Shown piece after piece: positions 3,818 to 28,265 of a stretch of 36,517 bases of DNA (its first letter is position 1; the number at the start of each line of letters is the position of its first letter). The notes beneath the pieces were generated by a model. That model did not search any database and was not told the DNA's origin. It saw only the letters and a list, made by a program, of their open reading frames with translations. The DNA comes from a virus: positions 1 to 36,517 of IMG/VR virus record IMGVR_UViG_3300006793_005941, one strand, 5' to 3'. The position numbers and the translations under genes are program-made.

Positions 3818-3833
3818 TCGTTAATATCCCCTA

Positions 3834-3857: not shown

Positions 3858-3873
3858 TTCCCTGTTAATGTTC

Positions 3874-8963: not shown

Positions 8964-8971
8964 GTATTTAT
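8964..8971 (-). promoter_or_regulatory. T4-type late promoter element for the 205-aa gene and fibre genes
   Basis: The minus strand reads CTAAATAAATACACTAG, containing ATAAATAC. It overlaps the stop codon of the giant gene (8968-8970) and ends 17 bases before the ATG at 8946, leaving a very short leader that still includes the AGGAAG ribosome binding site. It should drive the 205-aa gene and, through gaps of only three bases, the 734- and 747-aa fibre genes. Confidence 0.7.
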
Positions 8972-11900
8972 TTAGGTAAGTCAGTTGTTGCCTCGCGGAT
9001 GAATTCAGCAATTGAATTATTTGCGTATCTTAACTGCTCCCCTGGTGTTTGCCACGTTTTTCCTATTTTTCTTACTATAACCACCCTAGTACCTGTTACT
9101 GGAGTGTCTACAAGTGTTACTGTTGCTGATGAATCTGTAATATTTAATGTAAACTCTGGTGCTAAAGTAATGTCGCCTTCTGGGCTATCTTTAGCAATAA
9201 GCTCTGTTGTTACAATTCCATTAGCATCAACTACCTGATTTTGGTACATACTGATTGAATTCTTACGTAGTCTGCGTCCTGCTACAAACACTTCGAACTC
9301 GTCTACCCCTTTAGTAGGGATCCAATCTAGCAATATTTGTGTACTTTCGTCATCTAGTGCTATTGAACTTACCATTTCGTCTGTATAAGGAATAGTTTCA
9401 GAATTACTTTGATCCATAATTTCTGTTCCTGCAGGGTAAGTATCAGCAGGTCCTGTTCCTAATGTACCTCTACGTAGTTGTCTTAATTCTTTTCCAACTA
9501 CTTCAAAGTATTCAATTCTTTCTCCGTTAACAAATAATACACCTGGAACGTTTAATTCTTTACTTGGCTGTGTAATACCTTCTGCATCTGTAAGTTGAAT
9601 TACTTGGTCTGATATACTCAACGGCTCTGCTAAGAAGTAAACGTTTGCTTGGTTTAGTCTCTTATAGTGCGTTCTGTTAAGCATGTCTTTAAACATTCTA
9701 TATCCAAACTTTTCACTTGCTTTGTCAGCCGCAAAATGAATTACTTGTATTTTATCATTTGGTTTAACGGGTCTATCTATTTGTACGTAATTATCCATTT
9801 TAACTAACTTGTAGTCAACGTTTGGAGTTAACATTATTCCGTTTAAACTTATCCAAAGGTATGCGGTATCTACTGCTGGCGCACGTAGTTTAACTAAACC
9901 TTTTGTTAGTCTATTAAATTCATAATAGTCATCTGTACCAACTGTAAGTATACTACGTGAAACGTTAGTTTTTGTTTCCATTTGTATATCTTGTAGTTCG
10001 TGTCTATTAAATTTATATACGTCAACTTGTGTACCATCTGCAGGTATACTATCTAATACTAGTCTATCGCCTGCTTCAACAAGTGTTATACTTACAATCG
10101 ATGATGCTGTTGCATTACTTGTTAAGCCTACAATCGGAATACTATTGTCAATGTCAACTGCTTGAGATAGTCCTGGAACAGTACCTACTACAACTAAGTT
10201 ACCTGTACCAGTAGTAAATGATTTTACTGTTGCTGTATAAACTGTACTGTCTCCAGTTCCTATTTCTACAGTTTCGCCTGGTTCAAATGTACCTGTTACT
10301 GTTGGTAGTCCAATTAATGTATTTTTACTAAATTCGTATTCTGCTGAATCTGTAATAACAATTTCTAAGTCATCACCAGTTTCACCTACGTTATCAAACA
10401 AAGTAACTGATGAGTTATTAAAGTTCCAACGATAGTCTTTTAGTAATACTTTTTTAACACCGTTAATGTATACATCAACTGCATCTGGACTTAGGCTACT
10501 TGTCGGATACTGTGATCTATCTAATACATATTCACGTGCTGTAGTAATGTACCATTGTTGTGTATATCCTGGAAATAATATTTTATCATCAACTTTAACA
10601 ATAATGTTATGACTTAGTGGGAGCCTTGAAGCAGGCTCAGGTGACAATTCAAATTGTACTGTACTACCATCTCCAATAAATCTATCAATAATTACTTCAC
10701 TGTATCTTTGTATTGTTTCTTCATTAGTATCAAACAATGAGTAATAAACAAACGCATTATCGTTTGGCGGAATAACAAAGTCTAGTCCAACTAGTCCTGC
10801 TTTATCACCATAGGAACTATCTGTTTTAAATAATGATACTTGAGCATTTGCTCCGTCTACATTAATATAACTTTGTATATCGTCTGCCCATATCACACTT
10901 GTTACAAATGTTCTTGTTGTGCCGTCACCAATAAAGTGATCTGTGTCTAAAATTCTTTCTCCACTGCCTGCCATTGACAATACATTTACTTTGTCTCCTG
11001 CTACTAGTGCATCTCTTAGAGTTAATTTCTTATCTGTAAAGTTTATAGTGTACTCTGGTGTTCCAACTACTGAACTATCAGATCCTGGAACGTCTTCAGA
11101 TTGTAATATTTTTCCGTTAACTTTAACAATAGCACTGAATATGTTGTGTGGTAAAACATCTAAGTCAAAGTCTACTTGTCCATCAGTTGCAGTATAGTTT
11201 CTTGTGCTAATTAAACTACCGCCGTCTGCAGATCTATCATAAACTTTTAAGTCTAGTGTATCATGTAACTGTCCTGGAACTAATTCTTCTGGACCTTTTG
11301 ATGTTGTTGGTGTAACAAATCCGTCACCGTCAAGGTTAATATCACTTGCATCAAGTCCTGTTGCAGTACCATACTGTAAGTTACCACCTTCAATTAAACT
11401 ATCAAAGCCAATGCCTTCTGGTAGGAAGCTACCATCGCTTGTAGACTTTCTAAATGTAATTGTTGGATTAGAAGTAGCAAAGAACTCTTCCCACTCTTCA
11501 ACATTTTGTATATCAATATAGTAGTTTCCATTTTCAACTACATACTCAGTACTGTCTGAAGTAATTGATAACATAATTGCATTTGGATTACCTAATGAAA
11601 GAACTGTTGAACCGTCACCTGCAATATAAGTTTTGGTGCTACCATCATAATTAATATCATCAACTCTTGTAGCATTAACATATACATTGTAAATTGTATC
11701 TTCTTGTAAAGGTTTAGATAACTGGAATCTAAATGTAGGACCAGTTGTTACAAAACTTTCGTCATCAAAGTTTTCATCATATGAGTCCCATGACGTAGTG
11801 TACCATTCTTTACTATCCCAACCTAAGTCTTGACCAAATTCAAAACTCTTAACTTCAACGCCACCGTAGTCGACACCGTCCATTAGTTGTCCTAGGTCTT

Positions 11901-14900
11901 TACCTAACTGTCCTTCAGATGCATTGTAGAATAAGTTAATTCTATCTGCCGCTGTAAGCATACTAACATCTTTGTTGTATTCAACTTTAATTATTGTTCC
12001 AACTAGTTGTGCATTAGTTAATGTAATGTAACCTTGGTTACGAATATGTGTTTTGTTTGTACTAAACAATTCTTTATTATTGAAACTGTACTCACTGCTT
12101 AGTGCTTCAGTGTCGTTAAAGAATACTCTAACATTAGTTCTTGTTAAGTCCATTGGAAACTTGAGTGTTAGTGTAAGTTCAGTACCAGTACTTGTAAATA
12201 CTTCTGTTTCTGGTAAGTTTAATATTTCTAAGTTTGGAGATAGTCTATCAAACTTTTGTGTAACATTTAAACTTCTTACTTTTTTATTTCCTAATACAAT
12301 ACTTACTTTAGGTGCTAGTCCGCCTTCGTCTTGCACACCATCGATTGTAATAGTTGGAATACTTGTAAATCCTGCACCGCTGTTAGTAACAACAATATTT
12401 TTAACACTACCACTACCTATATATGCACTAGCAGTTGCACCTGTGCCACCGCCGCCAGTAATAGTTACTTGTGGAATATTAGTAAATCCTGTGCCGCCAT
12501 TTTCAATTTTAATTTCTTCAACACTGTATGTAAAATTATCAACCCAATGTTTTTGTGGATACTCATCAATATCAAAGTTTATGCCTGACAATACTCCGTC
12601 ATTGATTTGAACTTGTGGACTAACTATTTCGCCACGCTCTGTATCATAGAACGGCGATAGTTCAAAGTCTGTTACAACACTTTGAGTATTATCTGTCTTA
12701 TCATATGCTGATAAGTATTCTCTAACTTTTGTTCTGTAAGGTTTAACTTCTTCAATGTACTTTTCAAAACTTGGTAAGTTATCATTTTGATATGTAGTTT
12801 TTTCTTTTAGCTCGCCTACATTGTGTTTTGCTTTTATGAAACTTGTTTTAAATGCCCAGTCAACATAATTTTGTTCTGTAAACACATAACGCAGTCCTGC
12901 AAAGAACAATTGGTTATATTCATTTGCAAGTTCGTCAATAAATAAATCATCTCTAATAGTTTCTAATATTCTACGTAACTCTAATGATCCACCATCTTGT
13001 GTATAAAGTTTTGATAGGAATTCTAGTGTACCGTTTTCACGTCCAACAGTTTTGTATCCTGAACTATAGTCTGGTGTATCTACGTTTACAATTTTTTCTA
13101 GTAATATCCAGCCGCCTGTGCCGACGCTAGAGATTTTTACAATATCACCAATTTGATCATCGACAATATTCAATTCATAATAGTCATCAATTAAGTAGTC
13201 TACTGAAGTTAATTCACTGTAACCAGATGCATACCAATCTTTATAATTCCAAAATTCTGATACATCATATGACTGTTGACTATCTATTGTCCAATTTCTA
13301 GTTTGACTGTTCCAGCAATAGATTGACCACTTGCCACCTAGTGTACTATCTGACCTTACAAGGGTGCTAAGACGTCTCACAGTAAGCGTTAAGTCGTCTG
13401 TGTAGTTAGTGCCACCATTAACAATAATAACTCTTGTAATAGCGCCTATGTTGTTTAAAACAGGTGTTAGTTCTAGGTCTGAACCAGTTCCGTTAATAGT
13501 AATTTTTGGAACATTTTTGTAGCCTCTTCCTCTAGTTACTACGTTTATTTTGGTTACTGTTCCGTCTATAATAACAGGTTCTAATACTGCTTGCTCTGCT
13601 CTAACAGTACCAACAAATCTTAGTTCTTCTTCGGTATCAATAGCACTATCATACATACCTGATAGTACTGTTGGAAGAGGATCTTTATTAGATAATTTTG
13701 TAAGATCTAAACTATCAACAGCAAGCTCTTTTGAAAGAACTCTATTTACTCTTTCAATAAATTGTTTTAGTGCCTCTTTACGATTTACAAACCAACTCTG
13801 TCTTGGTCTATCTAAGTTACCGTATTTTTGTTTTACACTTAGTTCTGGATCTGGTACTGCTCTGCCATACTTGTCAGTTCCAATTAAACTATCAAACCAC
13901 TTCTGCTCAATATTTGATTTAGGTTTGCTTGATTCAAATCCGTCTGTAATAATTTGATATTCTGTATGAATATTATTGTCTTGATTATCAATAGTCCAGT
14001 AACGGAAATTAATTGCAACGTCTGTATCACTAACTAAGTTATTACAGTTGTATAAAACAAATCTATCATTACCGAGTACAGTAACAAATCTTAATTTCTG
14101 TCCTGCAGGGTCTGTTATGATATTTTGTATATCATACGCTGTTAAATTTCTACCTTCTATTTGTGGTAGTATCTTAGTTGCTTTAACCCAGAAGTAATAT
14201 TTTGTAGTAAACACTTGTCCAACACTATCATATATTTCTCGTGTTGCATACTTTGTATCACCGTATTTAGAAATACCACTTATACCTAATGCTGTACCTC
14301 TATTGGTTCCTGCTAAACTATCCCATGCTGACGGTAATATGTTTGACTCTACCCACTCGTAAATATCAATACTTGCACCTTCTGCAAGTTTGTTAAATGT
14401 ATTTTGTGAATAAGTTATTGAACCTTGATGGTAGTCAATGTATTTTACTGTACTTAGGTCCCACCATAGTTTGCCTATATTTTTATCGTCCCAAGCAATG
14501 TATTGTTCTTTATTATTAGTAAAGCCTACATTATAATTTGCAGGATCATAATATGTTTTATATGATAATTCTTGTTCTGCTGTACCAGGTATCTTACCTA
14601 ATATAGGATCAAGTATATCAAGTCTTGTTAACATAGTGTTTTGTTTAGTGTCGTAAACAAAACTGCCTCTAAACTTGTTTAGGTCTCCAGAGTCAACTGG
14701 TTCTCTATAAACTGACCAAGTACTGTCAATATCATCTTTGATGTATACTGCTACCTGTCCTTGAATATTTCCTGTAACGTCTAGCGCAGGCAATCCTACT
14801 AGTATTGTGTTATTGTTTACAATAACATTCTTACCAAAGTTCTTAACATTAAAGTTTGAATATTTTAAACGCTGTCCAAACACAAGAGTATCATTTATAT

Positions 14901-17900
14901 TTTCATAAACATAAACATTACCACTATCGCTTACACGTTTAACAAATGTGGTAAAGCCATTATCGTAAGTTGTTTGTGCTATATTAAATCCTTTAGTTGG
15001 ATCGTTAACATAGTCATTACGTGTTGTATCTCTTTGCTCATATCTATCAAACGTAGTATCAAGCAGTATGTCACTAGTTGCGCCTGTTACAATTAATTGG
15101 TTACCATCAAATCCTAAAGTTTGTCCAAAGCCTTCAACTAATTCTGCATTAGGACTGTTTAATTCTTGTTGTAAAGAATATGTTCCTGAAACATTTTTGT
15201 AAACGTATACTTTACCTTGCTGTGACTCTCTAGCGTCTGTGCCAGGAGCACTTACAACAATTAAGTTACCGTTATCTGAAACTGTTATACTATTGCCATA
15301 ACTATCTGAGTCTGCAGGTGCAGTAAATTCTGTTACGTATTGGAAGTGCATATCCTTGAGTGTGTATATTACAAGTTTATTGCCACTATCATATTTTGCT
15401 ACTGTTGCTAATACTCTACCATTATCACTAATATCAAATACTTCTCCGTATCCACTAGTTGATAAGTTTATAATACTACTGTCATCGCCTGGAATAACAA
15501 GTCCTGATGTATTTGGTAAGTAACCAACAAAGTCTATATCACTACCTATTACTTGCCATTTGATTGGAGTAAACGTTTCGTTACTTAAATTAGTAAGTGC
15601 CTTGTAGAATACATCATTATAAATTACAATTTGATCTTGATAGTAAGATGAAATACTATTGTATTCACCTTTGAAATTTGGATCTCTACCTAGTGACCAG
15701 TTGTATGTGCCAAACTCACTTGTACCATTTAGTACAAAGTAAAGTCTACCATTACCATCAGTTCCGTCATTAGTGTGTGGCTCTTTGCTGTTGATAACAA
15801 GTTTATAGAAGTTGTTATCTCTAATAAGTTTTACACGCTGTCCTAGTTCGCGGTTGTTTGAACGATTAGGAAGAATGTATCCACTAACTAAATCATATAG
15901 TCCAGTTGTACTGTCTTTTTGGTATACAAAGTATGCACCTTCTTTAGTATAAGAACTTGCATCTCTACCTACGTTAATAGGAATGTTATCTACTTGTGCC
16001 CAGTCATTGTTTTCTGTACTAGGTTCTAATGTTACACGAGGTAAACCTGGTTTGTATTCTTCAATCCATGTTTGATATTCAATACCTGTAATGAATTTTG
16101 TTTCATAGTCAGCAACTTCATCTGTAATACTGTTTAATGCAAATGTTAACTTTGGAGGTATACTTAAATTTGTAGTATGGGTAAACACTGCAAGGTAGCC
16201 GATATCTTCGTCTGCTAGTTGTCTTGATTCAGTAGTACCAATTCTTGTTAAGTTTGCACCTATTTGTTTGTATAACCACATTGATTGCGGTGCTAGTCCG
16301 TCAATGTAACGTGAACCAAAACTAAATTCGCCTGCAACATTTTTAACATACAGTCTTGACTTATCTAAATCTCTTTGTATAAAAGCAATTTCTGCTGATG
16401 CACCTGACTGACCTTCTCTAATAATATCGCCTGGGGCTAAGTCTACTTCAGCAAATACATCATAGTCAATATAACCATTCCATAAGTCTGTTGGACGTCT
16501 TCTGTCTACATTGATAACAGCATACGGGTCTGCACCAAATCCTGTATCAGATATATCTGGTAATACGCCATTTGCTGGAATATCATTTAAGTAAACACCA
16601 ACATACGGATTAGGCGTTGTGCTATCAGCTGTTGCTGATACTGCCTTGTCAGATACGTTTTTAGGTAAGCGTACAACAAATCTTGCATCTAATACATCAA
16701 CTTCAGTAACGTTGCCTGCAACACCTTGACTCTTATGACTAAGCACTCTAATAAGATCAGTTTCTTTCTTAAATGCTTTTGATGTTGATGCAAGAACTTC
16801 AACTGGATGTTCTAAAGTATTTTGTACACTACTCTTATACGGTAGTCTTGCTGTACTTTCTGTCCAATCTGGTCCTGGTAACGTTGCTGGATTGTAATTG
16901 TTTTTAACATCAACAATAACTAGTCCTTCTCCAGAATCTGTTGTTGGAGTATTTGTTAACTGTTCATCTTTAGGTGTAAAGCCTGTTGTTAGTGGTATTT
17001 CCCAATAGCCACCTAGTACAGTACTTCTATCTACACTATCAGCTAATGGTCTTGTATAACTACCTACTAAGAATTGATCATTAATAAACAGCGTACCTGA
17101 CTCATCAAATACACCATTCTTTCTATCTGCATAAATTACTAGACGTCCTAATTCGTTTCTAACACGAACAACGTCAGCATTACCTGTTGCAGTAGTTACT
17201 CTGTCGCCTGCTGAAACGCTAGGAACGTTAACAGGGTCAAGTATATAAAATACTTCTTGTACTTTACGTCTTATAACATGTGGATTCAAACTAAGGAAGT
17301 CTTTGTTAATTCCACTAAACGTATTATCAAAAGGTTTGTTTACTTTATTTAGGTAACCGTTAAAGCCGCCAATATTTGCTGTACCTACAAATCCTACAGT
17401 ACCGTTAACTTTAGTTGTTAATGCTTCGTTGCTGTATAATTCAATTTGTTGATTTGTTAATACTTTAGCATAATATTTTGTGCCTTCAATTCCTTTAACA
17501 CTACTTTGTTGTACTGTATCAAATGGTGTATTAATATCGCTGTTGTCGTACAAGTATGGGAACGCAATAGGTCTAAATGATAAATTATCATTTGGTACAT
17601 CAGTTAGTATAACTTGATCACCGTCTGCTAAACTATGGTTACTATTAGTTGTTAGTCTAACTGGATTAGTTAATTCAATATTAACAATCTCTGGCTTAAC
17701 GTCTGGAGTATAATTTAGACTTAATTCATTCCAATCAAGATATAATGTATCTCCAATGTTACTTCCTTCATATGCATCTAACGGAGCTCTAACTAATATG
17801 TGATCAATTTCAACATCTACTAGTGGTAAATCACCTAATGCTATTAATTGCACATCATCGTATGTGCCATGTATCTTATAAAGATCTGATCTCCAACGAC

Positions 17901-20900
17901 TAGCACTATCAAATGTACCAAACTCTATGTTATCAGTTCTTCCTTTGACAGTTCTTCTTGACTTATATAAGTTACCATTGTATTGTACAATAGATCCTAA
18001 CTTATAGTCAGTAGCAAAATTAAATTCATCTTTATATGCAGTCTTAACATTACTTGAATTAGGAGCAGTAACAACTAAGTACTCACCATCTGGACTCATA
18101 GACATTGCTTGTCCAAACTTACCCGGAGTAGTTGAATAATTAGCAATTGGTTCTAAAGTTTGCTTAGGTTGTAATGTTCCAAATGTTGTACTACCGTCTT
18201 GTTGTCTTTCATAAATGTAAACTTTTCCGTCACCGTCTAATGGTGAACCTACAGCAACTACAGTATTTGCACTATCATTTGCAATACTTTCGCCAAAGGA
18301 TATATTACTCTCTGCAGGATTAATTAAATTTTCATCTAAGTCAAAACTATTACCTGCTTTAATAACATTCCATTTACCTTTGCCATCAGCAGTAATACTA
18401 TCTACCCAAAGTGTTTCTCCAAATTCAATATCTGATTCAGCAAATTTATTTGCATCTGCAAGTGTTGTAACACGATTTGAAATAAACGTTGTAAGTATAC
18501 CTGTTAAGCCTGTAGCTTCTGTTGTTAGTGCTACATCTTCTGGTAATGCTATAGTAATTCTATTCAGCTCTACACTTTTAACTTTGAAAAAGCCCTGTAC
18601 TTCATCAGTAACATCATACAATCCTACAATGTCATCTACTTTTAATGTTGTTAGTCTATCTAAAACTAAAACAGCATCATTGTCTACTGGTAATGCACTT
18701 GTAATAGTACAAGGTGTATCTGTGTACTTGTATACATTCCAATCATTTTTATCAAATGTTACCCAAACATACTGTCCTTGTTGTATAGCATTATGATCAA
18801 TATTTAATATATCATCAAATGATTTTACAATATAGTTTACGTCTTCTTCTCTTACATAACCAGCAGTCTTTAATGCTGGATCATTTACATATTTTACTGG
18901 AAACGGTTTATGTGCATAATTATTAGGTGCTACAAATACGCTTCCTGGTAGTTGACGGTAAATTAAATCTGATACGTCATCTGGTATTGTTTCTGTTAAT
19001 AGTATTGGCTGTGGGCTTAATTGAAACTGTTCTTCGTCTAGTAAAAATTCTAATTCTTCAAAGCCGTCACTGGCACCATATTGTCCTGACCTAACAGCCC
19101 ATTCTTCATAAAACTCTAAACTTTCTTTATCTGCACTACTTAATGCATCAAACAATTTTGTAAGAACATTTTTAGTTCCTTTGTCTGCAATCATTCCTTG
19201 ATAGAATTTATATTGACTTACATCATCATTAATAATGTTTGCCAAGTATTCACGCTTTTGATAACCAATTAAATGCTGTGCAATTTCTTGTTGGTTAACA
19301 TCAAAGTTGTCTGTATCAAGATCATAAAAGTCACCAAACTGATTTGTTTTATATTCAAGGTTAGTAAGTAATTTACTCTGAGGTTTTTCTTCTAGTCTGT
19401 ACCATTGGTTATCAACAAATAATTCTGATCCTGAAACTTTTGTAATAGCCGCATAATAAAATTCTTTATACTTAACAGCATCGCCGATTGCATAGTCTTT
19501 CCATTGTTGCCAAGTTGTAACAATAGCATCATCATATATAAAGCCTGGAATGTTTAAGCCACCTGCCCAATCAGCAGTTCTATAACCTAGTACACGAATA
19601 CGTTCTTGTCTATATCCTGCTTCTTGATCGTAAATAATATCTTTAAATACAGTTTCGTTATCAAGTACAATAACATGTTCTTTTTGTACTAACGGAAGTT
19701 TTAAAGCATATATTCCATCTGCTGTATTTTTAACTGTAAGTGAAAAAGTATTTTCATTTGTTCTTAAAATATTTACAAATTCTTTTCTTAATTTTGTACC
19801 ATTTGCAGATACTAAACCATATTCATAAAATGGATCAAATATATCATCTACTACTGCATAAGATGTTGAAAACTCAATGCGTTGTGCTGAAGGACTTACA
19901 GTAATTAAACTTCCTGAGTCCCAGTTCTGTAATGTCCAGAACATAAATTCTTTTGCACTTAGTTTCCAATTTTCAACTGCTTCTAAAGTAGGATTAAAAT
20001 TATCAAATACAAATCCTGCATTTTGTAAATAGTCCCCATAACCTAACAAAAAGTCAACAACTTCTTGTGTTGTTCTTAATAATGTGCCATATGGTAATTG
20101 TTTTATAAATCTAGAATCAAATCTTGTTCTAAATTGTGCAGAACGTCCTCCTACAACTGGTAAGTCTGGAAGTTTAACAAATTTTGATTGATCAAAAATT
20201 GCAGTACTAGTGTGTCCTACAGTAACTCTATAAAATGTTTCTTGATACTTTACAACTCCGTCTGCAACATAACGCTGATCCGAATCCCATTCAATAAACG
20301 AATCACTTACACCGCCAACATTTACTAACGGATCATTTTGATTAGGCACATAGTTGTAATATTTAAAACTTGGGTTAGAAGAATCATATCCTCTAATAAT
20401 ATAACCTGCTGTTGCTTTCTCAATTACAACACCACTGTAAGTAACAACATCAATTGGGCTACTTGTTTGTAGTGTAACTTGATAGTTTTCTTCTGGAACA
20501 AAAACATTGCCTTGGTTTAAAGGAGTTCTACTGTCAAGTAATAAATTAAATTTACTCTTATCTGTAAATCCGCCTACTTTAAATGCAACTTGGTTTGTAA
20601 TATTTGCAATATTATTTTGATATGTGTCGTAATTAGAAACAACATTACTTGCAAGATAGTTTGCAATAAAGTTTACAAAGCCTGAAGTAAAGACTCTTAT
20701 TGAATCTGAACCTGTTGTACTATTATTTGGAAATACTAAATCTACTAAACGTAAACGCTTACTAGTTGTAGAGTATACAATTTGATTTGAGTTATCTCTT
20801 ACAGTTCTTAGTCTATCAAAACCTAGTCCAATAATTTTTGTAGGTTGATTTAACATCCATGCTTTAAATAATGAGAAAGCATATTCTGAACTTCTGCGCC

Positions 20901-23900
20901 ACGCAGTTTCTACTGGTGCTTCGTCGCCAAATACAAACGAAGCTCTTGTTAAACCATTTACATAATTTTTAGCATAGCCTGAATCTAATGGACTTAGTAG
21001 TTCACCTAAATCATTTACAGGTATATGTGTTGTAAGTCCAGGTCTTTTATATTTTTCTAGTACAACTTTATTTACGCCCGGCTTTGCAAGAATACCTTTT
21101 TCTAAATCTTCCCATAACAACAAGTTATTACTTGTATACGGAGCAGGACCATACACTGTTTCCCACCAGTCTGGCATATTTGTTAGTCCTAGCATTTCCC
21201 ATGGATGAGTATGTGGACGATCAGTATCGTATGCTTGTTTGTATACTCCTCTCCAATAACCTGGTAATGCTGTATCTAATGGAGACTGCATTGAGCTATA
21301 GTTATATGAGAATGTATTACCTCTGTTATAAAAGTCAAATGCTGTATAGTCAACATCATCAATGTTTGTTAACCAAGATGCAAAATCTTTAAGCATCACA
21401 TTATCAATATTTTCTTTAGTTACAGTTGTATTTCTATATGTTCCTGGAATAAAATCATGTATGTCAATAATATCTGAATTATAATTAGTTCTAATATTAT
21501 TATAAATTCTTTTTTCAAATTCAAGTATTAAGTCATCTCTAAAATCGCCATATGCTTTTGTTATAGATCCATCATGTCCTTGAATTACTTCTGTTGGCTC
21601 AGTGTACGAATTGTCAATAAACTTAATAGGAGCAAACTTTGGATACAAACCTAACTTAGTTGGTGTTGGCGGAACATATGATCCGTCAGTAGTTTCATAT
21701 TCGTTAATTGTAATTACTTGACCAGCAGTAAGTTCTTTTGTAATTTCACAAAAGCCGTCTGTGTTAAAGGTATAGTCTTGACCAAATACTAATTGTATAT
21801 CATCTAAGTATACTGTAACTGCTTTTACACTTGGTACAGATATATCATATATTTCATTTAGTGCATAATATATGTTACCCGGTATTGCATCGTAAGTAAT
21901 TGTTCTTGCACCACCTGTAGGTACCATATCACTAAAGTAAAACGGTAAGTTACTTGTTTTGTTTTTATTAAGTTCTGCAAATATTAAATCAACGTGTGCT
22001 TTAGGTGTTCCGTCAAATCCTAAACCTAATGCTGTTTGAATAAACAATCTTTTAAACTTAGCATATTCACGTCTGTTAAAGTCAATTGCTTTAATAATGT
22101 TTGCACTTTTATCTGTAATATGATATAGTGCAAGGTTTGTTGGTCCACTATGTTGTACAAACTTTCTACCAAACGTAGATAAGTTTCCAATGTCTCTTAA
22201 ATTTCCTGGTCCAGGATGTATACCAAAGAAGTCATTTACTTCTTGTACAATACTTGTTACGTGATCGTTAACTTCACCTAGTGTAAATGTTGTAATATCA
22301 TTGTTAAGCGGGTTACGTTCTAAGTTAATTGGTAATTCATATATACCGTTTGCATTTTTAGTAGCACTTGAACGACATCTAAAAACAACTACGTCATCTT
22401 TTAAAAGTGCTGTATTGAATCTAACAATTACATTTGTATCAGTTTTATCAAATACATAGTCTATAGTTTCAAATTTTAAATTATTGTTTACTGTAACCTT
22501 AATATCTAAGTCGTCTAATGACGAACTGTTATCAAATACATCAACTACAAAACTAGTTTGATTATTATTTGCTACATACTGGCGTAAAACTCTTTGTGTG
22601 CTTTGTACGTTTGCTTTTATCCAACCGTTAACACTAGTGTAGTCTGATCTTGTTGTATACTGCTGTAACGTACAAATATCAGTTGATGTTGTTATTGTTT
22701 CAAATGTTGTATCAGTATATGTAAACTCACTATTAAGTAAATTAAAATCAAAAACTATATCACCAATGTTTTCAATACTTCTATATGTAATAGGAAATCC
22801 TAGTTGTGAATCATTATTTCCTGTAGATTCACGATAACTAAAAACTTTATTACCTGTAAACGTAGTATTAGGATATGCACTAGCATCGCCATAACTATTA
22901 CCGTTTGCATCAAACAAATCAAACAATGGTGGTTGATTTACTTTAGTTTTTTCTTGTGTTAAATTCCATGTGTTGCCGTTGTAATAAAACATACGACCTT
23001 TGTATTCTAGTCCATCAAGAGCTAATACAGTTTCGTTTTCTAAAGGAGTAGTATCAGGTTCTTCAATTAAACTAATTTGTCTACGACCTTTTTGTGTAAT
23101 AAATTTAACTTTAAATATTTTGCCGTTTTCACGAATATCTTCTTCAGCAGTAAATAATACACGCATACCTTCTACAAGATCAACGCCGTCTATATTATAA
23201 CCTACTGCGCCTTCAACTGTTGAAAATATATCTTTTGTAAATGTATCAATAACGTTTACGTTACTTTTAGTTGAAGTACCAAAGTTAAATAATTTTAAGT
23301 TTGCATTAAATTCAATAATAGGTCTTGTTGCTCTTGCATTTTGATCAATATTGATCTCTTGCCCATTTATTCTAGCAGACTCTTCAATTACATTTTTGTG
23401 GAACCATCTATTATATCTACTCCACATGTTTCTATCATTACTACTACGATTAACTATAATATAGTCTTTTGTAGCAGGATATCCATTAGCATTAGCAAAT
23501 GGCAATCTATCAAATGCATTTGTATCAAACGCAACTTCTCTATTGTCTGAGTATGAACCTGGAATTGAAAGTTCGCTTTCAGGTACTAATTTAATATTAT
23601 TACCTACACCTTCAACATACCAATCGCCTGTTGCATATTTTTCAGGAGTAACAAATCCTGCAAAAGATACTTTCATGCCTGTTGATAGTTGTACGCCATT
23701 TGAACTTTTATATTTCTTTTTACCTAGTATTTCTTTTTCAACATCGATGTCTGTATTCTCATCTATGTCTTTAATTTGTATTAGGCCACTATTGTTAATA
23801 TCATTTTCTGCAACATAGTATAATACTTCAGGTGCATTAACATCTACTTCAAATGTTACTGTACCTTTTTCAACACCCTGAGCACTAACGCCATCGTTAT

Positions 23901-24591
23901 AATTAAAACTAGATTCTAAAGTTCTTTTTGTTTTAAATGTAATTGGTGTACCAATTGTATCAATGTCAAATGTATATGTTTGGCCTTTGTATAAAATAAG
24001 TGTTGGATTGTTTACTAAGTCATCTGATGAAAACTTGTATGCAACGTTGTCTACATTATTAAATAATGATACTTCAACAGTACTTTCTACGCCACGTTCT
24101 TGTCCTGCAAGTCTTACAGTTTGTGGACCATATGGTAGCCAATAGTATTCACGGAAGTTACTAAACTTATCCCAGTCAATGTGTGGTTGCCATGCATAAT
24201 ATTCTTGTGAATTTAATACTTCTTGATTTTCTGTGTTGCCACCAAAACTTTTAATTTGATTTAGATAGTCATTATAGTCTTTATAAAATGTAACATTGTC
24301 TAGTTCATCTTTTATAAGTGTTACAGGTTCAAACTGATAATTTTCTCTTTGTGTAGATATATCGCCTACATAATTATCGTCAGCATTGTATGCTTTAGAT
24401 ATTTGTCTACCATAGTAACCGTTGAGTTTTTCTGCAACGCCTGGCTGTACTAATTGATCTAATGTTGCTTGTAAAAATTTACTGTTAGCATCAGTTCTAA
24501 AGTACTTAGGAAGTAAGTTTTCACTTTTACGACTTCCTTCATTACCGCCTACTGGTAATGGAAAATCTGATTGGTTATTTTCATACGCCAT
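8968..24591 (-). CDS. Giant virion structural protein (5207 aa), baseplate-associated, multi-domain
   Basis: One uninterrupted 15.6-kb frame. Residues 1-200 contain LPKYFRTDANSKFLQATLDQ, FGGNTENQ and a W/Y-rich HIDWDKF...YYWLPYGP segment; with HPWEMLGL...WWETVYGPAPY near 1124 and HLIGYQKREYL further on, these resemble very large structural proteins of marine T4-like phages, some annotated VrlC-like. FG-GAP-like propeller blades lie at about 2095-2180 and 3045-3285. CBM5/12-like Y-x-x-G-x-x-V-x-Y motifs lie near 1436, 1692, 2189 and 2975. Gly-rich G-x-G-[YF]-x-x-[VI]-P-x-[VI]-T-I repeats lie near 3677-3737 and 4024-4084, and F-[IV]-GDG-[ST]-T fibre motifs near 4549 and 4637. A RTHYKRL...GERIEYF...LRQLRRGTLGT segment precedes the C-terminus (about 4970-5060). 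The gene overlaps gp6 by one base (TAATG) and uses GGAGG inside gp6's Gly-Gly codons as ribosome binding site. By position it replaces T4 gp7 and neighbours; direct gp7 homology is not evident. No enzyme motif was recognised. Confidence 0.85.
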   Translation of the reverse strand: MAYENNQSDFPLPVGGNEGSRKSENLLPKYFRTDANSKFLQATLDQLVQPGVAEKLNGYYGRQISKAYNADDNYVGDISTQRENYQFEPVTLIKDELDNVTFYKDYNDYLNQIKSFGGNTENQEVLNSQEYYAWQPHIDWDKFSNFREYYWLPYGPQTVRLAGQERGVESTVEVSLFNNVDNVAYKFSSDDLVNNPTLILYKGQTYTFDIDTIGTPITFKTKRTLESSFNYNDGVSAQGVEKGTVTFEVDVNAPEVLYYVAENDINNSGLIQIKDIDENTDIDVEKEILGKKKYKSSNGVQLSTGMKVSFAGFVTPEKYATGDWYVEGVGNNIKLVPESELSIPGSYSDNREVAFDTNAFDRLPFANANGYPATKDYIIVNRSSNDRNMWSRYNRWFHKNVIEESARINGQEINIDQNARATRPIIEFNANLKLFNFGTSTKSNVNVIDTFTKDIFSTVEGAVGYNIDGVDLVEGMRVLFTAEEDIRENGKIFKVKFITQKGRRQISLIEEPDTTPLENETVLALDGLEYKGRMFYYNGNTWNLTQEKTKVNQPPLFDLFDANGNSYGDASAYPNTTFTGNKVFSYRESTGNNDSQLGFPITYRSIENIGDIVFDFNLLNSEFTYTDTTFETITTSTDICTLQQYTTRSDYTSVNGWIKANVQSTQRVLRQYVANNNQTSFVVDVFDNSSSLDDLDIKVTVNNNLKFETIDYVFDKTDTNVIVRFNTALLKDDVVVFRCRSSATKNANGIYELPINLERNPLNNDITTFTLGEVNDHVTSIVQEVNDFFGIHPGPGNLRDIGNLSTFGRKFVQHSGPTNLALYHITDKSANIIKAIDFNRREYAKFKRLFIQTALGLGFDGTPKAHVDLIFAELNKNKTSNLPFYFSDMVPTGGARTITYDAIPGNIYYALNEIYDISVPSVKAVTVYLDDIQLVFGQDYTFNTDGFCEITKELTAGQVITINEYETTDGSYVPPTPTKLGLYPKFAPIKFIDNSYTEPTEVIQGHDGSITKAYGDFRDDLILEFEKRIYNNIRTNYNSDIIDIHDFIPGTYRNTTVTKENIDNVMLKDFASWLTNIDDVDYTAFDFYNRGNTFSYNYSSMQSPLDTALPGYWRGVYKQAYDTDRPHTHPWEMLGLTNMPDWWETVYGPAPYTSNNLLLWEDLEKGILAKPGVNKVVLEKYKRPGLTTHIPVNDLGELLSPLDSGYAKNYVNGLTRASFVFGDEAPVETAWRRSSEYAFSLFKAWMLNQPTKIIGLGFDRLRTVRDNSNQIVYSTTSKRLRLVDLVFPNNSTTGSDSIRVFTSGFVNFIANYLASNVVSNYDTYQNNIANITNQVAFKVGGFTDKSKFNLLLDSRTPLNQGNVFVPEENYQVTLQTSSPIDVVTYSGVVIEKATAGYIIRGYDSSNPSFKYYNYVPNQNDPLVNVGGVSDSFIEWDSDQRYVADGVVKYQETFYRVTVGHTSTAIFDQSKFVKLPDLPVVGGRSAQFRTRFDSRFIKQLPYGTLLRTTQEVVDFLLGYGDYLQNAGFVFDNFNPTLEAVENWKLSAKEFMFWTLQNWDSGSLITVSPSAQRIEFSTSYAVVDDIFDPFYEYGLVSANGTKLRKEFVNILRTNENTFSLTVKNTADGIYALKLPLVQKEHVIVLDNETVFKDIIYDQEAGYRQERIRVLGYRTADWAGGLNIPGFIYDDAIVTTWQQWKDYAIGDAVKYKEFYYAAITKVSGSELFVDNQWYRLEEKPQSKLLTNLEYKTNQFGDFYDLDTDNFDVNQQEIAQHLIGYQKREYLANIINDDVSQYKFYQGMIADKGTKNVLTKLFDALSSADKESLEFYEEWAVRSGQYGASDGFEELEFLLDEEQFQLSPQPILLTETIPDDVSDLIYRQLPGSVFVAPNNYAHKPFPVKYVNDPALKTAGYVREEDVNYIVKSFDDILNIDHNAIQQGQYVWVTFDKNDWNVYKYTDTPCTITSALPVDNDAVLVLDRLTTLKVDDIVGLYDVTDEVQGFFKVKSVELNRITIALPEDVALTTEATGLTGILTTFISNRVTTLADANKFAESDIEFGETLWVDSITADGKGKWNVIKAGNSFDLDENLINPAESNISFGESIANDSANTVVAVGSPLDGDGKVYIYERQQDGSTTFGTLQPKQTLEPIANYSTTPGKFGQAMSMSPDGEYLVVTAPNSSNVKTAYKDEFNFATDYKLGSIVQYNGNLYKSRRTVKGRTDNIEFGTFDSASRWRSDLYKIHGTYDDVQLIALGDLPLVDVEIDHILVRAPLDAYEGSNIGDTLYLDWNELSLNYTPDVKPEIVNIELTNPVRLTTNSNHSLADGDQVILTDVPNDNLSFRPIAFPYLYDNSDINTPFDTVQQSSVKGIEGTKYYAKVLTNQQIELYSNEALTTKVNGTVGFVGTANIGGFNGYLNKVNKPFDNTFSGINKDFLSLNPHVIRRKVQEVFYILDPVNVPSVSAGDRVTTATGNADVVRVRNELGRLVIYADRKNGVFDESGTLFINDQFLVGSYTRPLADSVDRSTVLGGYWEIPLTTGFTPKDEQLTNTPTTDSGEGLVIVDVKNNYNPATLPGPDWTESTARLPYKSSVQNTLEHPVEVLASTSKAFKKETDLIRVLSHKSQGVAGNVTEVDVLDARFVVRLPKNVSDKAVSATADSTTPNPYVGVYLNDIPANGVLPDISDTGFGADPYAVINVDRRRPTDLWNGYIDYDVFAEVDLAPGDIIREGQSGASAEIAFIQRDLDKSRLYVKNVAGEFSFGSRYIDGLAPQSMWLYKQIGANLTRIGTTESRQLADEDIGYLAVFTHTTNLSIPPKLTFALNSITDEVADYETKFITGIEYQTWIEEYKPGLPRVTLEPSTENNDWAQVDNIPINVGRDASSYTKEGAYFVYQKDSTTGLYDLVSGYILPNRSNNRELGQRVKLIRDNNFYKLVINSKEPHTNDGTDGNGRLYFVLNGTSEFGTYNWSLGRDPNFKGEYNSISSYYQDQIVIYNDVFYKALTNLSNETFTPIKWQVIGSDIDFVGYLPNTSGLVIPGDDSSIINLSTSGYGEVFDISDNGRVLATVAKYDSGNKLVIYTLKDMHFQYVTEFTAPADSDSYGNSITVSDNGNLIVVSAPGTDARESQQGKVYVYKNVSGTYSLQQELNSPNAELVEGFGQTLGFDGNQLIVTGATSDILLDTTFDRYEQRDTTRNDYVNDPTKGFNIAQTTYDNGFTTFVKRVSDSGNVYVYENINDTLVFGQRLKYSNFNVKNFGKNVIVNNNTILVGLPALDVTGNIQGQVAVYIKDDIDSTWSVYREPVDSGDLNKFRGSFVYDTKQNTMLTRLDILDPILGKIPGTAEQELSYKTYYDPANYNVGFTNNKEQYIAWDDKNIGKLWWDLSTVKYIDYHQGSITYSQNTFNKLAEGASIDIYEWVESNILPSAWDSLAGTNRGTALGISGISKYGDTKYATREIYDSVGQVFTTKYYFWVKATKILPQIEGRNLTAYDIQNIITDPAGQKLRFVTVLGNDRFVLYNCNNLVSDTDVAINFRYWTIDNQDNNIHTEYQIITDGFESSKPKSNIEQKWFDSLIGTDKYGRAVPDPELSVKQKYGNLDRPRQSWFVNRKEALKQFIERVNRVLSKELAVDSLDLTKLSNKDPLPTVLSGMYDSAIDTEEELRFVGTVRAEQAVLEPVIIDGTVTKINVVTRGRGYKNVPKITINGTGSDLELTPVLNNIGAITRVIIVNGGTNYTDDLTLTVRRLSTLVRSDSTLGGKWSIYCWNSQTRNWTIDSQQSYDVSEFWNYKDWYASGYSELTSVDYLIDDYYELNIVDDQIGDIVKISSVGTGGWILLEKIVNVDTPDYSSGYKTVGRENGTLEFLSKLYTQDGGSLELRRILETIRDDLFIDELANEYNQLFFAGLRYVFTEQNYVDWAFKTSFIKAKHNVGELKEKTTYQNDNLPSFEKYIEEVKPYRTKVREYLSAYDKTDNTQSVVTDFELSPFYDTERGEIVSPQVQINDGVLSGINFDIDEYPQKHWVDNFTYSVEEIKIENGGTGFTNIPQVTITGGGGTGATASAYIGSGSVKNIVVTNSGAGFTSIPTITIDGVQDEGGLAPKVSIVLGNKKVRSLNVTQKFDRLSPNLEILNLPETEVFTSTGTELTLTLKFPMDLTRTNVRVFFNDTEALSSEYSFNNKELFSTNKTHIRNQGYITLTNAQLVGTIIKVEYNKDVSMLTAADRINLFYNASEGQLGKDLGQLMDGVDYGGVEVKSFEFGQDLGWDSKEWYTTSWDSYDENFDDESFVTTGPTFRFQLSKPLQEDTIYNVYVNATRVDDINYDGSTKTYIAGDGSTVLSLGNPNAIMLSITSDSTEYVVENGNYYIDIQNVEEWEEFFATSNPTITFRKSTSDGSFLPEGIGFDSLIEGGNLQYGTATGLDASDINLDGDGFVTPTTSKGPEELVPGQLHDTLDLKVYDRSADGGSLISTRNYTATDGQVDFDLDVLPHNIFSAIVKVNGKILQSEDVPGSDSSVVGTPEYTINFTDKKLTLRDALVAGDKVNVLSMAGSGERILDTDHFIGDGTTRTFVTSVIWADDIQSYINVDGANAQVSLFKTDSSYGDKAGLVGLDFVIPPNDNAFVYYSLFDTNEETIQRYSEVIIDRFIGDGSTVQFELSPEPASRLPLSHNIIVKVDDKILFPGYTQQWYITTAREYVLDRSQYPTSSLSPDAVDVYINGVKKVLLKDYRWNFNNSSVTLFDNVGETGDDLEIVITDSAEYEFSKNTLIGLPTVTGTFEPGETVEIGTGDSTVYTATVKSFTTGTGNLVVVGTVPGLSQAVDIDNSIPIVGLTSNATASSIVSITLVEAGDRLVLDSIPADGTQVDVYKFNRHELQDIQMETKTNVSRSILTVGTDDYYEFNRLTKGLVKLRAPAVDTAYLWISLNGIMLTPNVDYKLVKMDNYVQIDRPVKPNDKIQVIHFAADKASEKFGYRMFKDMLNRTHYKRLNQANVYFLAEPLSISDQVIQLTDAEGITQPSKELNVPGVLFVNGERIEYFEVVGKELRQLRRGTLGTGPADTYPAGTEIMDQSNSETIPYTDEMVSSIALDDESTQILLDWIPTKGVDEFEVFVAGRRLRKNSISMYQNQVVDANGIVTTELIAKDSPEGDITLAPEFTLNITDSSATVTLVDTPVTGTRVVIVRKIGKTWQTPGEQLRYANNSIAEFIREATTDLPK

Positions 24592-27500
24592 TAGTAACCG
24601 TATCCTCCGCTATTACTACCTGAACCACTGCTACTTGAGCCGCTACTTGAACTGCTTGAACTGCTTGAGCTACTGCTACTTGAACTGCTTGAGCTACTGC
24701 TACTTGAACTACTGCTACTGCTACTGCTACTTGAACTAGGTGAGTAACTGCTTTGATTCGAACTTACATTGCTTGAACTACTACCTAAGTTCAAACTATC
24801 AATACTTGATGCTACTGCTTGACTAGCAGTTACGTCTTGTGTTGTGCTAACTATTGCACCTTGTGATTTTAATTTAGTTGCTGTAAGAGTTGTAACAACT
24901 TCAATGTTATCAACTGTTGCACTGCTTATAAACACTTCGTCTGCTTCTGACTTGACTTCAAACAAACTACCAAAAGTAAGTGAGTCTTGTGTAGGAACAA
25001 TAACAAATGCCGCTAAGTTCGGAGCAAGTTGTGTCATTACATAAGCACTAAGCTCTGTAAAATAAAATGTATCTCCAAACTCCCAGTTTTCTATAGCAAA
25101 GAATTCATTAATTGCTGTGATAACGCCTGCTTTTAATTCATTTTCATTAACAACTTTATCTGTATTTTTTACAATTTTAAATGATGCTTTCAAGTCGTCG
25201 CTTGCTCCAATACCAAACAGCTCTTTGTACTTAACTGGATGATAAATTACTTCATCACTAATTGACTTAATTTTGTTTATTTGTTCACCAAAGTTAATAA
25301 ACAATACATCACTGCTTGGCGGCAACGGTTTTGTTGCTAGTGCGCCTGCAACATATTGTCTATAAGTTGTATCATATGATCTTGTTAATACATAAGTGTC
25401 AATAATGTTAGAGCTACTTGGATCTATTCTATTGCTTTCGTCTGCTGAATGCTCATATTGAAATATGATTCCATCTCTACCTGTGTAAGCTCTAAAGTTT
25501 ACTGTTAGCTCTAATTTTTCAGTTGTTGTATTATAAATTTTAAAAATATTTTTATCTATAATATAAAACACTGTACCTGTTGCGTAACTTTCAATGCCAG
25601 CATTTGTAATAACTGTTTCTGTTTCTACTGCTGTAATTTTTTCATCTGAAGCATTTACATATCTAAAATCTTCTACAGCATCAGTTGTAGTATATTGTTT
25701 TTGGTATATAAATTTACCTGTGGACGATGTTGTAATAAACTTATCAAAAATTTCTGGATCATCTACAACACCATCATCGTCGCTGTCATAAAATCCAACT
25801 TCAATCTTTTTACTATCTACATAGCCTTCTTTATCTCTATACTCATTTACAATCTCCCAATTGAAAGGAACTGTAAACGGAGTAAGTGCATATCCTGTAC
25901 TAGTTGGCTGTGTGTTAATACTCATTAAACTAATTTTATCTTTTACAACTTCGTTAGTTAATGGATCATATACTTTATCTGAATTGTCGTAATAGAATCT
26001 AATTTCTTTATCGCTTTCAAACACATAACGCTGTCCACGATATGTAATTGTGTATGTTTCTCCGTCTGTTTGGAATAACAATAACCAACTACTGTCTAAG
26101 TTTTGTCCTGTTATGTCGCCTGTTTTACCTGTAGTAAATGCATTTAAGATATCAAGATCGTCTTCTACTACAACACGCCATGTTGATGTTTTAAAATCAA
26201 ATCTTAAACCAAACGTTTTGTAAGTAAACACTTGATCAATAATTTGAGTTTTAATTTGATTTTCGATTGCTGTAGTAAACACAGGTTTAATTTCTTGTAT
26301 AATAGGAGCAGTTGAAAGATCGCCATTAATTGGACCTGGAATAATATCGTTAAGAACAATAGCACCTAAGCCGTCATTTGTATTGTCAACACCTGGACCG
26401 TTAACACTTATAACTTTTGTCCATTTGTAAGTTATTGCATTAGGATGATCTGCATTACCTGCCATAAGTGAATGAGAGCCATCTGACATAAAGTGATACC
26501 CTGGTGGTGCAATAAACTTTATCATACTACCTGGTTCAAGATATTGTAACGTAGAACCTGTAAATGAACCTACTCTTAATTTTGTACTATCAATGTCTGT
26601 TAAGTAACCTGTTGTTAAATTAGTTGCTGACGAAACTTGATTCCATCTTGCACCTAATTCTTCTACAATTATTTTTGCAAACTGTGAGTAATAAAAGTTT
26701 TTAATTTTATAATTTTTAAGAATAACTTCTATTTGATTCTTAATAATACCTTCAATGTCTGTTTTTGTTGTAAAAGAAAATACTTCTTTGCTAGTTAAGT
26801 TCTGTGTATAAAGTATACCGTCTTTACCGTACAAATTAGTTTTACTATATTTGCCAGTAGCGTCAAGTAAATCATAATATCTACTAATACCACTTGCTGT
26901 TCTGTTTACACTCTTAACTTTAATAATTTCTTGACTTACACCTAATGGAGCAACGTTATAGTCTTCGCCTGTAACCATTCTATTTTGTGTATAGTATGTT
27001 GCAGGGGCATTTGCTTTAATACTTGCATTAGTTTCTGAAGTACTTGAATTTTCAATAGGGTATTTTAGTTCTAAGCCTATTGTAAGATTTTCTGATGTTC
27101 CTAATTTACTTCTGTAAGGAATAGTAATTGTAATGTTTATAAGTTCTGCTGGACTTACAACAAATGTTCTGTTATCACTTACACGGTAGTAAACTTTAAA
27201 TGTACCTTTTGGTAATGCACCAAATGTACCATCTGAGAATATTAAACTAATTCTATCTTCAACTCTAGTTAATACTGAATAAATGTTTCTAATATTTTTA
27301 TTTAAACTGTTGTAAACAATGTTGTTACCTTCTACAGCATCAACTTTTGACCATAACTCGTTTTCATTACCAATGTCATCTAATTTGTACAACCAAACAT
27401 CTGTGTCGTTAACATCTACAGCATCGATTGCAACAACTTGGTTTGAACTTGGAGTTGCTATTGAGAAGTTACCTTGATCTAAACGTCCTTGTCTAAAGTG

Positions 27501-28265
27501 TGCAAAGAATCCTGTATTGTTTGATCCAGCACCTTGGCCGTCATCTCTGTAAAGGAATGCAAAATTGTTTCCTGGTAGTGGGGCTTCTTCTACAATGTTA
27601 CCACTTTCAACATTAGTACTTGTAATTTCAAACTGTGTTGATTTACCATCAACGTTTTTACTAAATCCAAATACAGGAATATCTACGTTTACGCCATTAA
27701 CTCTATACTGCTCAACACTAATACCATTAACAGTATCAGTTTTTACAGGACGACCAAACACACTGTTTGCAGGTAGTGCAGAATTCATTACTTTAATAAA
27801 CTGCTCATACCAGTCTTGGTTTGAAACATCATTCCAAATAACTGTTTGTCCAGATAAGTTAGTACCGTTTGAATCATATAGCTCTTCTGTAGAACTAATT
27901 GTTTCAAATTTTAACAAACCATTTGCTGATTGGTTACGTTTTGGATTGTAAGAAAGTAAACGAGCTAAACGTAGTACCGACTCTCTACGTTCTGCTAATT
28001 CTAAAAAGTTTTCTCTTGCATTAAGGTCAACACGGAAAGACATATTTTGACCTAAGAAAGCAATAAGGTCAATCAATGCCAAGTATTCACTTGATTCGAT
28101 GTAGTCGTTGAAATCCTCCGGATAGTTCTGACGGAGGTAATTTATCATTGTTCTGCGCAGGTTATCAAAGTCGTAACTTTGGAAATCTGCATTTCTAAAA
28201 GACTGATATACTCGCTTCCAATCTTCAGCTAGTAATAGTCTGTTTTGTCTGTCGGTTGTTGACAT
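24591..28265 (-). CDS. gp6: Baseplate wedge protein gp6-like (1224 aa)
   Basis: The N-terminus is typical of gp6 in T4-like phages: RTMINYLRQNYPEDFNDYIE, an ALIDLIAFLGQNMSFRVDLN segment, and NFLELAERRESVLRLARLLSY near residues 82-108. A conserved C-terminal region lies at about 930-1130 (FQYEHSADESNRIDP, then VKYKELFGI). In T4, gp6 dimers form the inner ring of the baseplate around the hub and bind gp25, gp53 and gp7. At 1224 residues it is nearly twice T4 gp6 (660). The tail beyond about 1150 is low complexity and includes 32 consecutive serines followed by a Gly/Ser end. Gene order gp5-gp25-gp6 agrees with the T4 family. The start at 28265 has AAAGGAAG upstream and two late-promoter-like elements in the preceding 59-base gap. 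Confidence 0.92.
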   Translation of the reverse strand: MSTTDRQNRLLLAEDWKRVYQSFRNADFQSYDFDNLRRTMINYLRQNYPEDFNDYIESSEYLALIDLIAFLGQNMSFRVDLNARENFLELAERRESVLRLARLLSYNPKRNQSANGLLKFETISSTEELYDSNGTNLSGQTVIWNDVSNQDWYEQFIKVMNSALPANSVFGRPVKTDTVNGISVEQYRVNGVNVDIPVFGFSKNVDGKSTQFEITSTNVESGNIVEEAPLPGNNFAFLYRDDGQGAGSNNTGFFAHFRQGRLDQGNFSIATPSSNQVVAIDAVDVNDTDVWLYKLDDIGNENELWSKVDAVEGNNIVYNSLNKNIRNIYSVLTRVEDRISLIFSDGTFGALPKGTFKVYYRVSDNRTFVVSPAELINITITIPYRSKLGTSENLTIGLELKYPIENSSTSETNASIKANAPATYYTQNRMVTGEDYNVAPLGVSQEIIKVKSVNRTASGISRYYDLLDATGKYSKTNLYGKDGILYTQNLTSKEVFSFTTKTDIEGIIKNQIEVILKNYKIKNFYYSQFAKIIVEELGARWNQVSSATNLTTGYLTDIDSTKLRVGSFTGSTLQYLEPGSMIKFIAPPGYHFMSDGSHSLMAGNADHPNAITYKWTKVISVNGPGVDNTNDGLGAIVLNDIIPGPINGDLSTAPIIQEIKPVFTTAIENQIKTQIIDQVFTYKTFGLRFDFKTSTWRVVVEDDLDILNAFTTGKTGDITGQNLDSSWLLLFQTDGETYTITYRGQRYVFESDKEIRFYYDNSDKVYDPLTNEVVKDKISLMSINTQPTSTGYALTPFTVPFNWEIVNEYRDKEGYVDSKKIEVGFYDSDDDGVVDDPEIFDKFITTSSTGKFIYQKQYTTTDAVEDFRYVNASDEKITAVETETVITNAGIESYATGTVFYIIDKNIFKIYNTTTEKLELTVNFRAYTGRDGIIFQYEHSADESNRIDPSSSNIIDTYVLTRSYDTTYRQYVAGALATKPLPPSSDVLFINFGEQINKIKSISDEVIYHPVKYKELFGIGASDDLKASFKIVKNTDKVVNENELKAGVITAINEFFAIENWEFGDTFYFTELSAYVMTQLAPNLAAFVIVPTQDSLTFGSLFEVKSEADEVFISSATVDNIEVVTTLTATKLKSQGAIVSTTQDVTASQAVASSIDSLNLGSSSSNVSSNQSSYSPSSSSSSSSSSSSSSSSSSSSSSSSSSSSSSSSGSSSSGSGSNSGGYGY
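24642..24737 (-). repeat. Poly-serine codon repeat in gp6 (32 Ser codons)
   Basis: Thirty-two consecutive codons, all AGC, AGT or TCA, encode serine. A 24-bp block (plus strand GCTTGAGCTACTGCTACTTG plus AACT) occurs twice in direct succession inside the tract, and shorter GCTACT units repeat around it. Such DNA is prone to replication slippage in steps of three, changing tract length without breaking the frame. Confidence 0.95.

Follow-up and report, generated by a model that had tools for sequence, protein, structure and literature searches.

A 5,207-residue protein in the gp7 position of an uncultured T4-related virus: a probable baseplate wedge scaffold displaying binding modules

The giant protein of 5,207 aa described here (8968-24591, minus strand) probably takes the gp7 position in the baseplate wedge of a T4-related, RaK2/PA5oct-like phage lineage, with a scaffold shared with jumbo phages that displays a series of binding modules. 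It is encoded in a 36.5-kb virus record, analysed over its whole length (the window), which carries a run of T4-type tail genes on the minus strand. The protein is probably one arm of the host-docking plate of an uncultured T4-related bacterial virus; we know of no cultured phage of exactly this lineage. Giants in the gp7 slot are already on record, and size alone is not new. What appears to be new is the layout, which according to sequence profiles and predicted models combines a conserved scaffold with a cupredoxin lacking copper, CBM5/12-like modules and a seven-bladed FG-GAP propeller split by an insert. The initial annotation supposed this layout to be undescribed, and no account of a propeller, a cupredoxin or a comparable giant layout in a phage baseplate was found in the open-licence papers searched; in the available part of a 2026 jumbo phage review, the word 'baseplate' occurs once, for phiKZ (PMC13282480).

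The frame spans 15.6 kb and 5,207 codons without an internal stop, exactly as first annotated; at its GC content of 33%, the probability of so many open codons arising by chance is ~10^-192. Its start codon overlaps the stop of gp6 as TAATG, with a GGAGG upstream. Among 65 records carrying the giant or a relative, 35 (the window included) were found with residues 1-2000 and contain no stop within the match; in the 30 further records, frames of at least 4,459 aa are present in 27 and short ones in three, one of which (G041) reaches the contig end. Two records (G054 and G062) have two overlapping frames each, with continuing homology but broken at different places, so that a single frame is found in 63 of the 65 as far as the contigs reach, frame lengths being lower bounds where contig ends cut them. 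The breaks lie at 13579-13741 of L205 and 15199-15229 of L226 and may be sequencing slips or true splits. The 3' end is closed in 17 of 18 extracted relatives, at lengths of 4,472-5,624 aa, and open in G019. A separate record, G012, is 100% identical over residues 1-2000 and encodes a giant of the same length. Comparison with a relative at 95% identity (G002) gives a dN/dS of 0.138 along the frame, indicating purifying selection; in 200-residue bins, the ratio peaks at residues 3601-3800 (0.43) and 401-600 (0.38), and no rise is seen in the binding modules, where the bins of residues 2201-3000 give 0.11-0.23. The open codons, the intact relatives and the dN/dS rule out a chance frame. The initial annotation had also asked whether relatives might encode several proteins that an error fuses here. 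The two-frame records are what speaks for such a sequencing or assembly error, or for a frame that is not translated whole, and with 63 single frames against them this reading is extremely improbable. Because the frames are intact in relatives, the length is equal in G012 and the dN/dS is low, the frame is real and fusion by sequencing error is excluded.

Gene order confirms the position first assigned to the giant, after gp6 and before the fibre genes. The minus-strand run comprises genes for a gp53-like protein (33731-34033), a structural protein (31250-33727), a gp5-like hub protein (28788-31250) with a Gp5_C match, gp25 (28325-28771) and a gp6-like wedge protein (24591-28265; phrog_10646, E 6.5e-295), whose stop overlaps the start of the giant. 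The gp5-like protein of the window carries a GH19 chitinase-type domain; T4 gp5 is a tail lysozyme. The gp6-like protein has 1,224 aa, about twice the length of T4 gp6 (660 aa). It ends in a Ser/Gly-rich tail with short tandem repeats (24626-24738, minus strand), the length of which seems variable, the frame being 1,188 aa in relatives at 95% identity. A fibre gene with a collar domain lies downstream of the giant, and a late sigma factor gene (34960-35808) is on the plus strand, opposite the tail genes. Also on the plus strand, a partial ORF at 1-1116 contains TGDVTGNVTGD-type repeats with periods of 12 to 84 bases; it probably encodes a fibre, on the strand opposite the other fibre genes. 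Megablast found no similar DNA in the phage collection.

By profile comparison, the giant belongs to phrog_10938, annotated 'virion structural protein' (3,324 profile positions; E 1.3e-252 for residues 1-2600 and 2.7e-83 for a second, overlapping piece), and is kin of proteins of RaK2-, PA5oct- and Atu_ph07-like jumbo phages. A tblastn search of 50,697 phage records returned 67 records matching residues 1-2983 and 57 matching residues 2401-5207, all at less than 60% identity and none spanning 80% of the query; the best matches came from five groups of jumbo phages (PA5oct, Atu_ph07, Phosso, SCTP-2 and RaK2). Coliphage Sharanji, whose record gives E. coli K12 MG1655 as host, is a culturable relative. 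Ten extracted jumbo-phage giants have 3,326 to 4,555 aa, against 5,207 in the window. As in the window, the gene directly follows gp6 in most of these phages: a homologue lies directly behind a gp6 relative in PA5oct, RaK2, Atu_ph07, GAP32, Phosso, Vibrio 2.275.O, XaC1, PBECO4, CBB and XacN1. In Munch the preceding gene is annotated as hypothetical (by annotation rather than a sequence check), and SCTP-2 is an exception, with its gp6 relative located elsewhere. The gene order of PA5oct is that of the window, with late sigma factor, structural proteins, hub/lysozyme, two wedge subunits, giant, small proteins and fibre. Two relatives have been detected in virions: the record of the PA5oct homologue, gp355, bears the note 'ESI-MS/MS', and the CBB homologue, gp236, is listed as CBB_236 in the virion proteome table with 21 peptides and 7.72% coverage (PMC5259590). 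For Atu_ph07, 131 virion proteins have been reported, and gp180 is not named among them in the part of the paper available (PMC6102473); nor is RaK2 ORF070 named in the available part of PMC3622015. The initial description of the giant as a virion protein is thus supported by these two relatives.

An alignment of 29 giants shows a scaffold held in common with the jumbo phages at approximately residues 1-2000 and 3300-4000, with scaffold blocks present in every relative aligned, while most of residues 2000-3300 are confined to aquatic metagenomic relatives, the Atu_ph07 group aligning partly and at low identity. One conserved block (residues 1060-1360, with the motif HPWEMLGF; 20512-21414, minus strand) was aligned in 12 sequences, and a second (residues 3306-3622; 13726-14676, minus strand) matches phrog_10938 at E 1.2e-85. 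Sequence searches of the PDB gave no credible match for the conserved block (E 0.45), residues 1-1200 (0.75) or residues 3300-5207 (0.054). Structure models cover residues 1-820 (pLDDT 85.0) and 2100-3299; the folding alignments A4 and A5 contained 40 and 39 diverse relatives selected from 123 and 65 candidates. A protein of an uncultured Caudovirales virus, A0A6J5L0K2 ('YHYH domain-containing protein' in BFVD, without known function), is similar to the 1-820 model (47% identity, TMq 0.77); the matching BFVD model is 1,165 residues long.

Several modules are set into or onto this scaffold. Residues 167-280 (23752-24093, minus strand) are predicted to adopt a cupredoxin fold, with a Z-score of 10.7 to nitrite reductase as the highest (102 residues aligned, 2.3 Å) and a match to phrog_677 (E 4.4e-10). 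Type 1 copper is bound by His, Cys, His and Met; residues 160-285 contain no Cys, His or Met and therefore lack these ligands. Cyanophage proteins annotated as 'baseplate wedge tail fiber connector' contain a similar domain. Among the jumbo phages, the domain is unaligned in RaK2-like relatives, and residues 201-300, which make up most of the cupredoxin, show an occupancy of 0-23% in PA5oct, SCTP-2, RaK2-like and Vibrio relatives but of 66% in the Atu_ph07 group. There are four candidate CBM5/12-like modules. One, at residues 1434-1464 (20200-20292, minus strand), exceeds the Pfam cut-off (26.9 vs 26.2 bits); the others score 21.8, 13.1 and 12.6 bits. A possible second module at residues 1693-1716 (19444-19515, minus strand) has an E-value of 0.14, below the cut-off, and its segment is absent from the eight jumbo-phage relatives aligned. 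Towards the C-terminus, a Gly-Gly beta repeat occurs in two copies, at residues 3678-3776 (13264-13560, minus strand) and 4023-4115 (12247-12525, minus strand; E 1.8e-7 to the first copy), followed by a C-terminal region (residues 4486-5203; 8983-11136, minus strand) with related copies at residues 4486-4559 and 5118-5203.

A further module is an FG-GAP propeller in two parts, an N-terminal part at residues 2100-2190 (18022-18294, minus strand) and a C-terminal part at residues 3046-3290 (14722-15456, minus strand), the latter scoring 39.1 bits with FG-GAP_2 against a cut-off of 23. The two are separated by 855 residues (2191-3045; 15457-18021, minus strand) that carry CBM5/12-like modules near both ends (E 0.0002 and 0.1, below the cut-off). 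Neither part was found at E 1e-3 in any of ten jumbo-phage giants, whereas the window protein has both. When residues 2100-3299 were folded with 41 sequences, a propeller resulted (pLDDT 81.6, pTM 0.69). The first 14 Foldseek matches of this model are integrin alpha chains (best E 2.9e-8); VIA-align gave a Z-score of 26.6 to integrin alphaM, with 336 residues aligned at 3.1 Å and distributed over model positions 1 to 1189, and 24.4 to a designed seven-bladed propeller. A PDB sequence search with the same residues returned tail fibre, tail spike, integrins and a chitinase domain. The predicted model thus points to a seven-bladed fold, an assignment made on the fold as a whole rather than by counting single blades. 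Both a propeller and carbohydrate-binding-like modules had been proposed from the sequence at the outset; the former is borne out by FG-GAP_2 and by the integrin-like model, the latter by Pfam CBM5/12, with one module above and three below the cut-off.

That both parts belong to one propeller follows from the existence of relatives without the insert. Across 117 rows, which include near-copies and some records twice and leave six rows with the N-terminal part only uncounted, the insert is shorter than 100 residues in 21, 215-219 in two, 437 in one, 673-792 in 45 and 855-969 in 48; the value of 437 (L163) and seven values below 0 rest on weak matches of the C-terminal part. For a tree, 99 of the 117 rows were taken and 71 kept after removal of those at least 97% alike. 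On this unrooted tree the four length classes require six changes, which does not support rapid swapping of the insert, and the insert-less forms make up one cluster of 14 rows, one of them with a small insert (SH-aLRT 89). Insertion and loss are indistinguishable, because the tree is unrooted. Integrin alpha chains (alphaM, alphaX, alphaL) likewise have an FG-GAP propeller carrying an inserted domain: of their seven blades, the second and third are separated by the ligand-binding I domain. The insert of the window protein differs from the I domain in its 855 residues, which are mostly beta structure, and the parallel would be one of form, with no evidence of common function.

The giant shares its slot after gp6 with proteins of very different size, namely T4 gp7 (1,032 aa), a compact gp7-type protein of Stenotrophomonas phage BUCT608 (503 aa) and the giants of cyanophages. 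Directly after gp6, P-SSM2 encodes a gp7 of 5,195 aa; the S-SSM7 gp7 has 3,007 aa and the protein in the gp7 slot of S-BM3 3,849 aa. S-SSM7 has two proteins of ~3,000 aa, each called gp7, whose genes flank a connector gene (L147, 162-19256); together they may represent a giant gp7 divided over two genes. The cyanophage proteins (gp7 or 'baseplate wedge initiator') resemble the window protein in slot, size and the presence of Gly-Gly repeats. However, they match PHROGs 2885 and 4406 rather than 10938 and are linked by sequence to T4 gp7 (tested with all of S-SSM7 gp7 and residues 1-2000 of the others), and neither blastp nor HMM searches gave a full-length match to the window protein. By blastp, the similarity of three proteins to the giant (S-SSM7 gp7 and, from S-BM3, both the gp7-slot protein and the 'virulence associated protein') is limited to the Gly-Gly repeats, P-SSM2 gp7 matches these repeats in the giant's twin from G012 (E 0.010), and the phrog_2885 match is restricted to 71 residues within the repeat. 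T4 Gp7 has been described as absent from pelagimyophages and cyanomyophages and apparently substituted by VrlC (PMC7029224). The label VrlC is used loosely, naming a relative of the S-BM3 gp7-slot giant in ACG-2014h. The N-terminal part of the giant had been called VrlC-like, which was not borne out: similarity of the S-BM3 'virulence associated protein' to the window protein is confined to residues 4008-4084, hhalign found no match between the N-terminal profile and the cyanophage gp7 N-terminus, and a VrlC identity of this part was rejected.

T4 gp7 forms a heterotrimer with two gp6 chains. A motif, FY..KG......LF, recurs in T4 gp7, in the giant gp7 proteins of cyanophages and in compact gp7-type proteins from phages of Stenotrophomonas and Xanthomonas. 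The BUCT608 protein, annotated as hypothetical, overlaps the preceding gene by four bases (L242, 1-1512). A ten-core gp7 profile, for a core picked after the families had been read, was moved stepwise along the giant-family profile (79 overlapping segments). It scored highest, 22.9, at residues 1756-1885, at the site FYQGMIADKGTKNVLTKLF, where several columns are invariant in the family; the second independent place in the forward direction reached 14.5, and a reversed core gave at most 15.2. The corresponding P is 0.0015 per segment and ~0.12 over the 79 segments, or 0.00037 and ~0.03 with a deeper query. A four-core profile scored 23.6 at the same place (next independent segment 17.6), with a whole-chain E of 0.042. 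The possible core itself (FYQGMIADKGT...KLF, residues 1793-1835; 19087-19215, minus strand) lies ~1,800 residues from the N-terminus, whereas in BUCT608 the motif is at residue 91. No match was found between T4 gp7 alone and this region, or between the giant and the Pfam models Gp7_helical, Gp7_5th and Gp7_6th (ten slices and whole chain); Gp7_helical also misses the annotated gp7 of P-SSM2 and S-SSM7, as well as S-BM3, and is thus a narrow model. In two comparisons of the 1-820 model with the PDB, cupredoxins fill the 50 matches listed, which makes the absence of wedge proteins there uninformative. The N-terminal motif LPxYFRT (residues 25-50; 24442-24519, minus strand), at the site where gp7-type proteins carry LPxFxRxDxP, ranked first of the 79 segments at the expected place, but as a sign of gp7 it was rejected, scoring no better than the reversed control (17.8 vs 17.9). 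The FYQGxIxxKGT...LF stretch, the best though weak match of the giant to the gp7 core, is therefore a hint rather than proof of membership.

With gp7 homology short of convincing, the giant could serve peripherally in host recognition or fibre attachment and simply occupy the gp7 slot, the role of gp7 being filled by another protein such as the C-terminal extension of gp6. The doubled length of gp6 fits this reading, as does the large share of the giant taken up by outer modules, but the presence of scaffold blocks in every relative aligned, the TAATG overlap with gp6 and the KG-motif hint speak against it, and it is considered unlikely. The initial annotation went further in the other direction and had the giant replace several T4 baseplate genes, the functions of gp7, gp8 and gp9-gp11 being united in one chain. 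In favour of this, gp8 was matched in all four T4 and cyanophage records but, at E 0.1, in none of the 11 records bearing a homologue (ten complete genomes and the partial Vibrio 2.275.O), nor in ten long aquatic contigs, which are possibly fragments; the cyanophages with a giant gp7 (P-SSM2, S-SSM7 and S-BM3), unlike the homologue-bearing records, keep a separate gp8. A match to gp9/10 exceeded the cut-off in none of the 11 records, with two sub-threshold. However, loss of gp9/10 can be divergence, because its model, which matches in T4 and S-SSM7, misses two of the three cyanophages (P-SSM2 and S-BM3), and a relative, G054, has a 249-aa frame (L235, 110720-111016) with a match to the N-terminal domain of T4 gp9/10 (27.3 bits). 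A fibre gene with a collar domain is also retained downstream of the giant. Within the giant, the Pfam models of gp7, gp8, gp9/10 and gp11 gave no match at E≤5 in ten slices (which omit residues 1061-1379, 1501-1689, 1791-2099 and 2301-2849) or at E≤1 over the whole chain, PF09215, PF07880 and PF08677 being unmatched while the T4 control proteins matched. By sequence, some wedge genes appear to be missing or unrecognisable in the group, and the giant is not seen to hold their folds, which makes a true fusion of this kind quite unlikely.

The reading of a gp7-position wedge scaffold displaying binding modules would assign distinct tasks to the parts of the chain. The scaffold (approximately residues 1-165, 285-2000 and 3300-4000), which is common to the jumbo phages, is probably the part that docks on gp6 and forms the wedge; next to gp6 it would be present, by symmetry, in six copies per baseplate. 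The cupredoxin lacking copper, one to four CBM5/12-like modules, the interrupted seven-bladed propeller and the Gly-Gly repeats would most likely face outwards, touching host polysaccharide or holding fibres. Host contact and the sheath trigger would then reside in one polypeptide, with a link from the one to contraction. A bolder version, itself rather improbable, sees the structural core of a gp7-type wedge protein dispersed along thousands of residues and interspersed with modules that read the receptor. Its split propeller would display a large binding segment in the manner of the integrin I domain, and ligand contact could then pass straight to the wedge that triggers sheath contraction, without separate trigger or fibre-connector proteins.

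A single query with the conserved block at residues 1060-1360 returned at least 595 related stretches from IMG/VR, so that such giants are common among uncultured viruses. Since the propeller exists in relatives both with and without its insert, comparing the two forms could help to identify what the insert binds. Should the scaffold be a diverged gp7, the wedge proteins of this family would range in a natural series from 503 aa up to the giants, and would test how far the contraction trigger and host recognition can merge.
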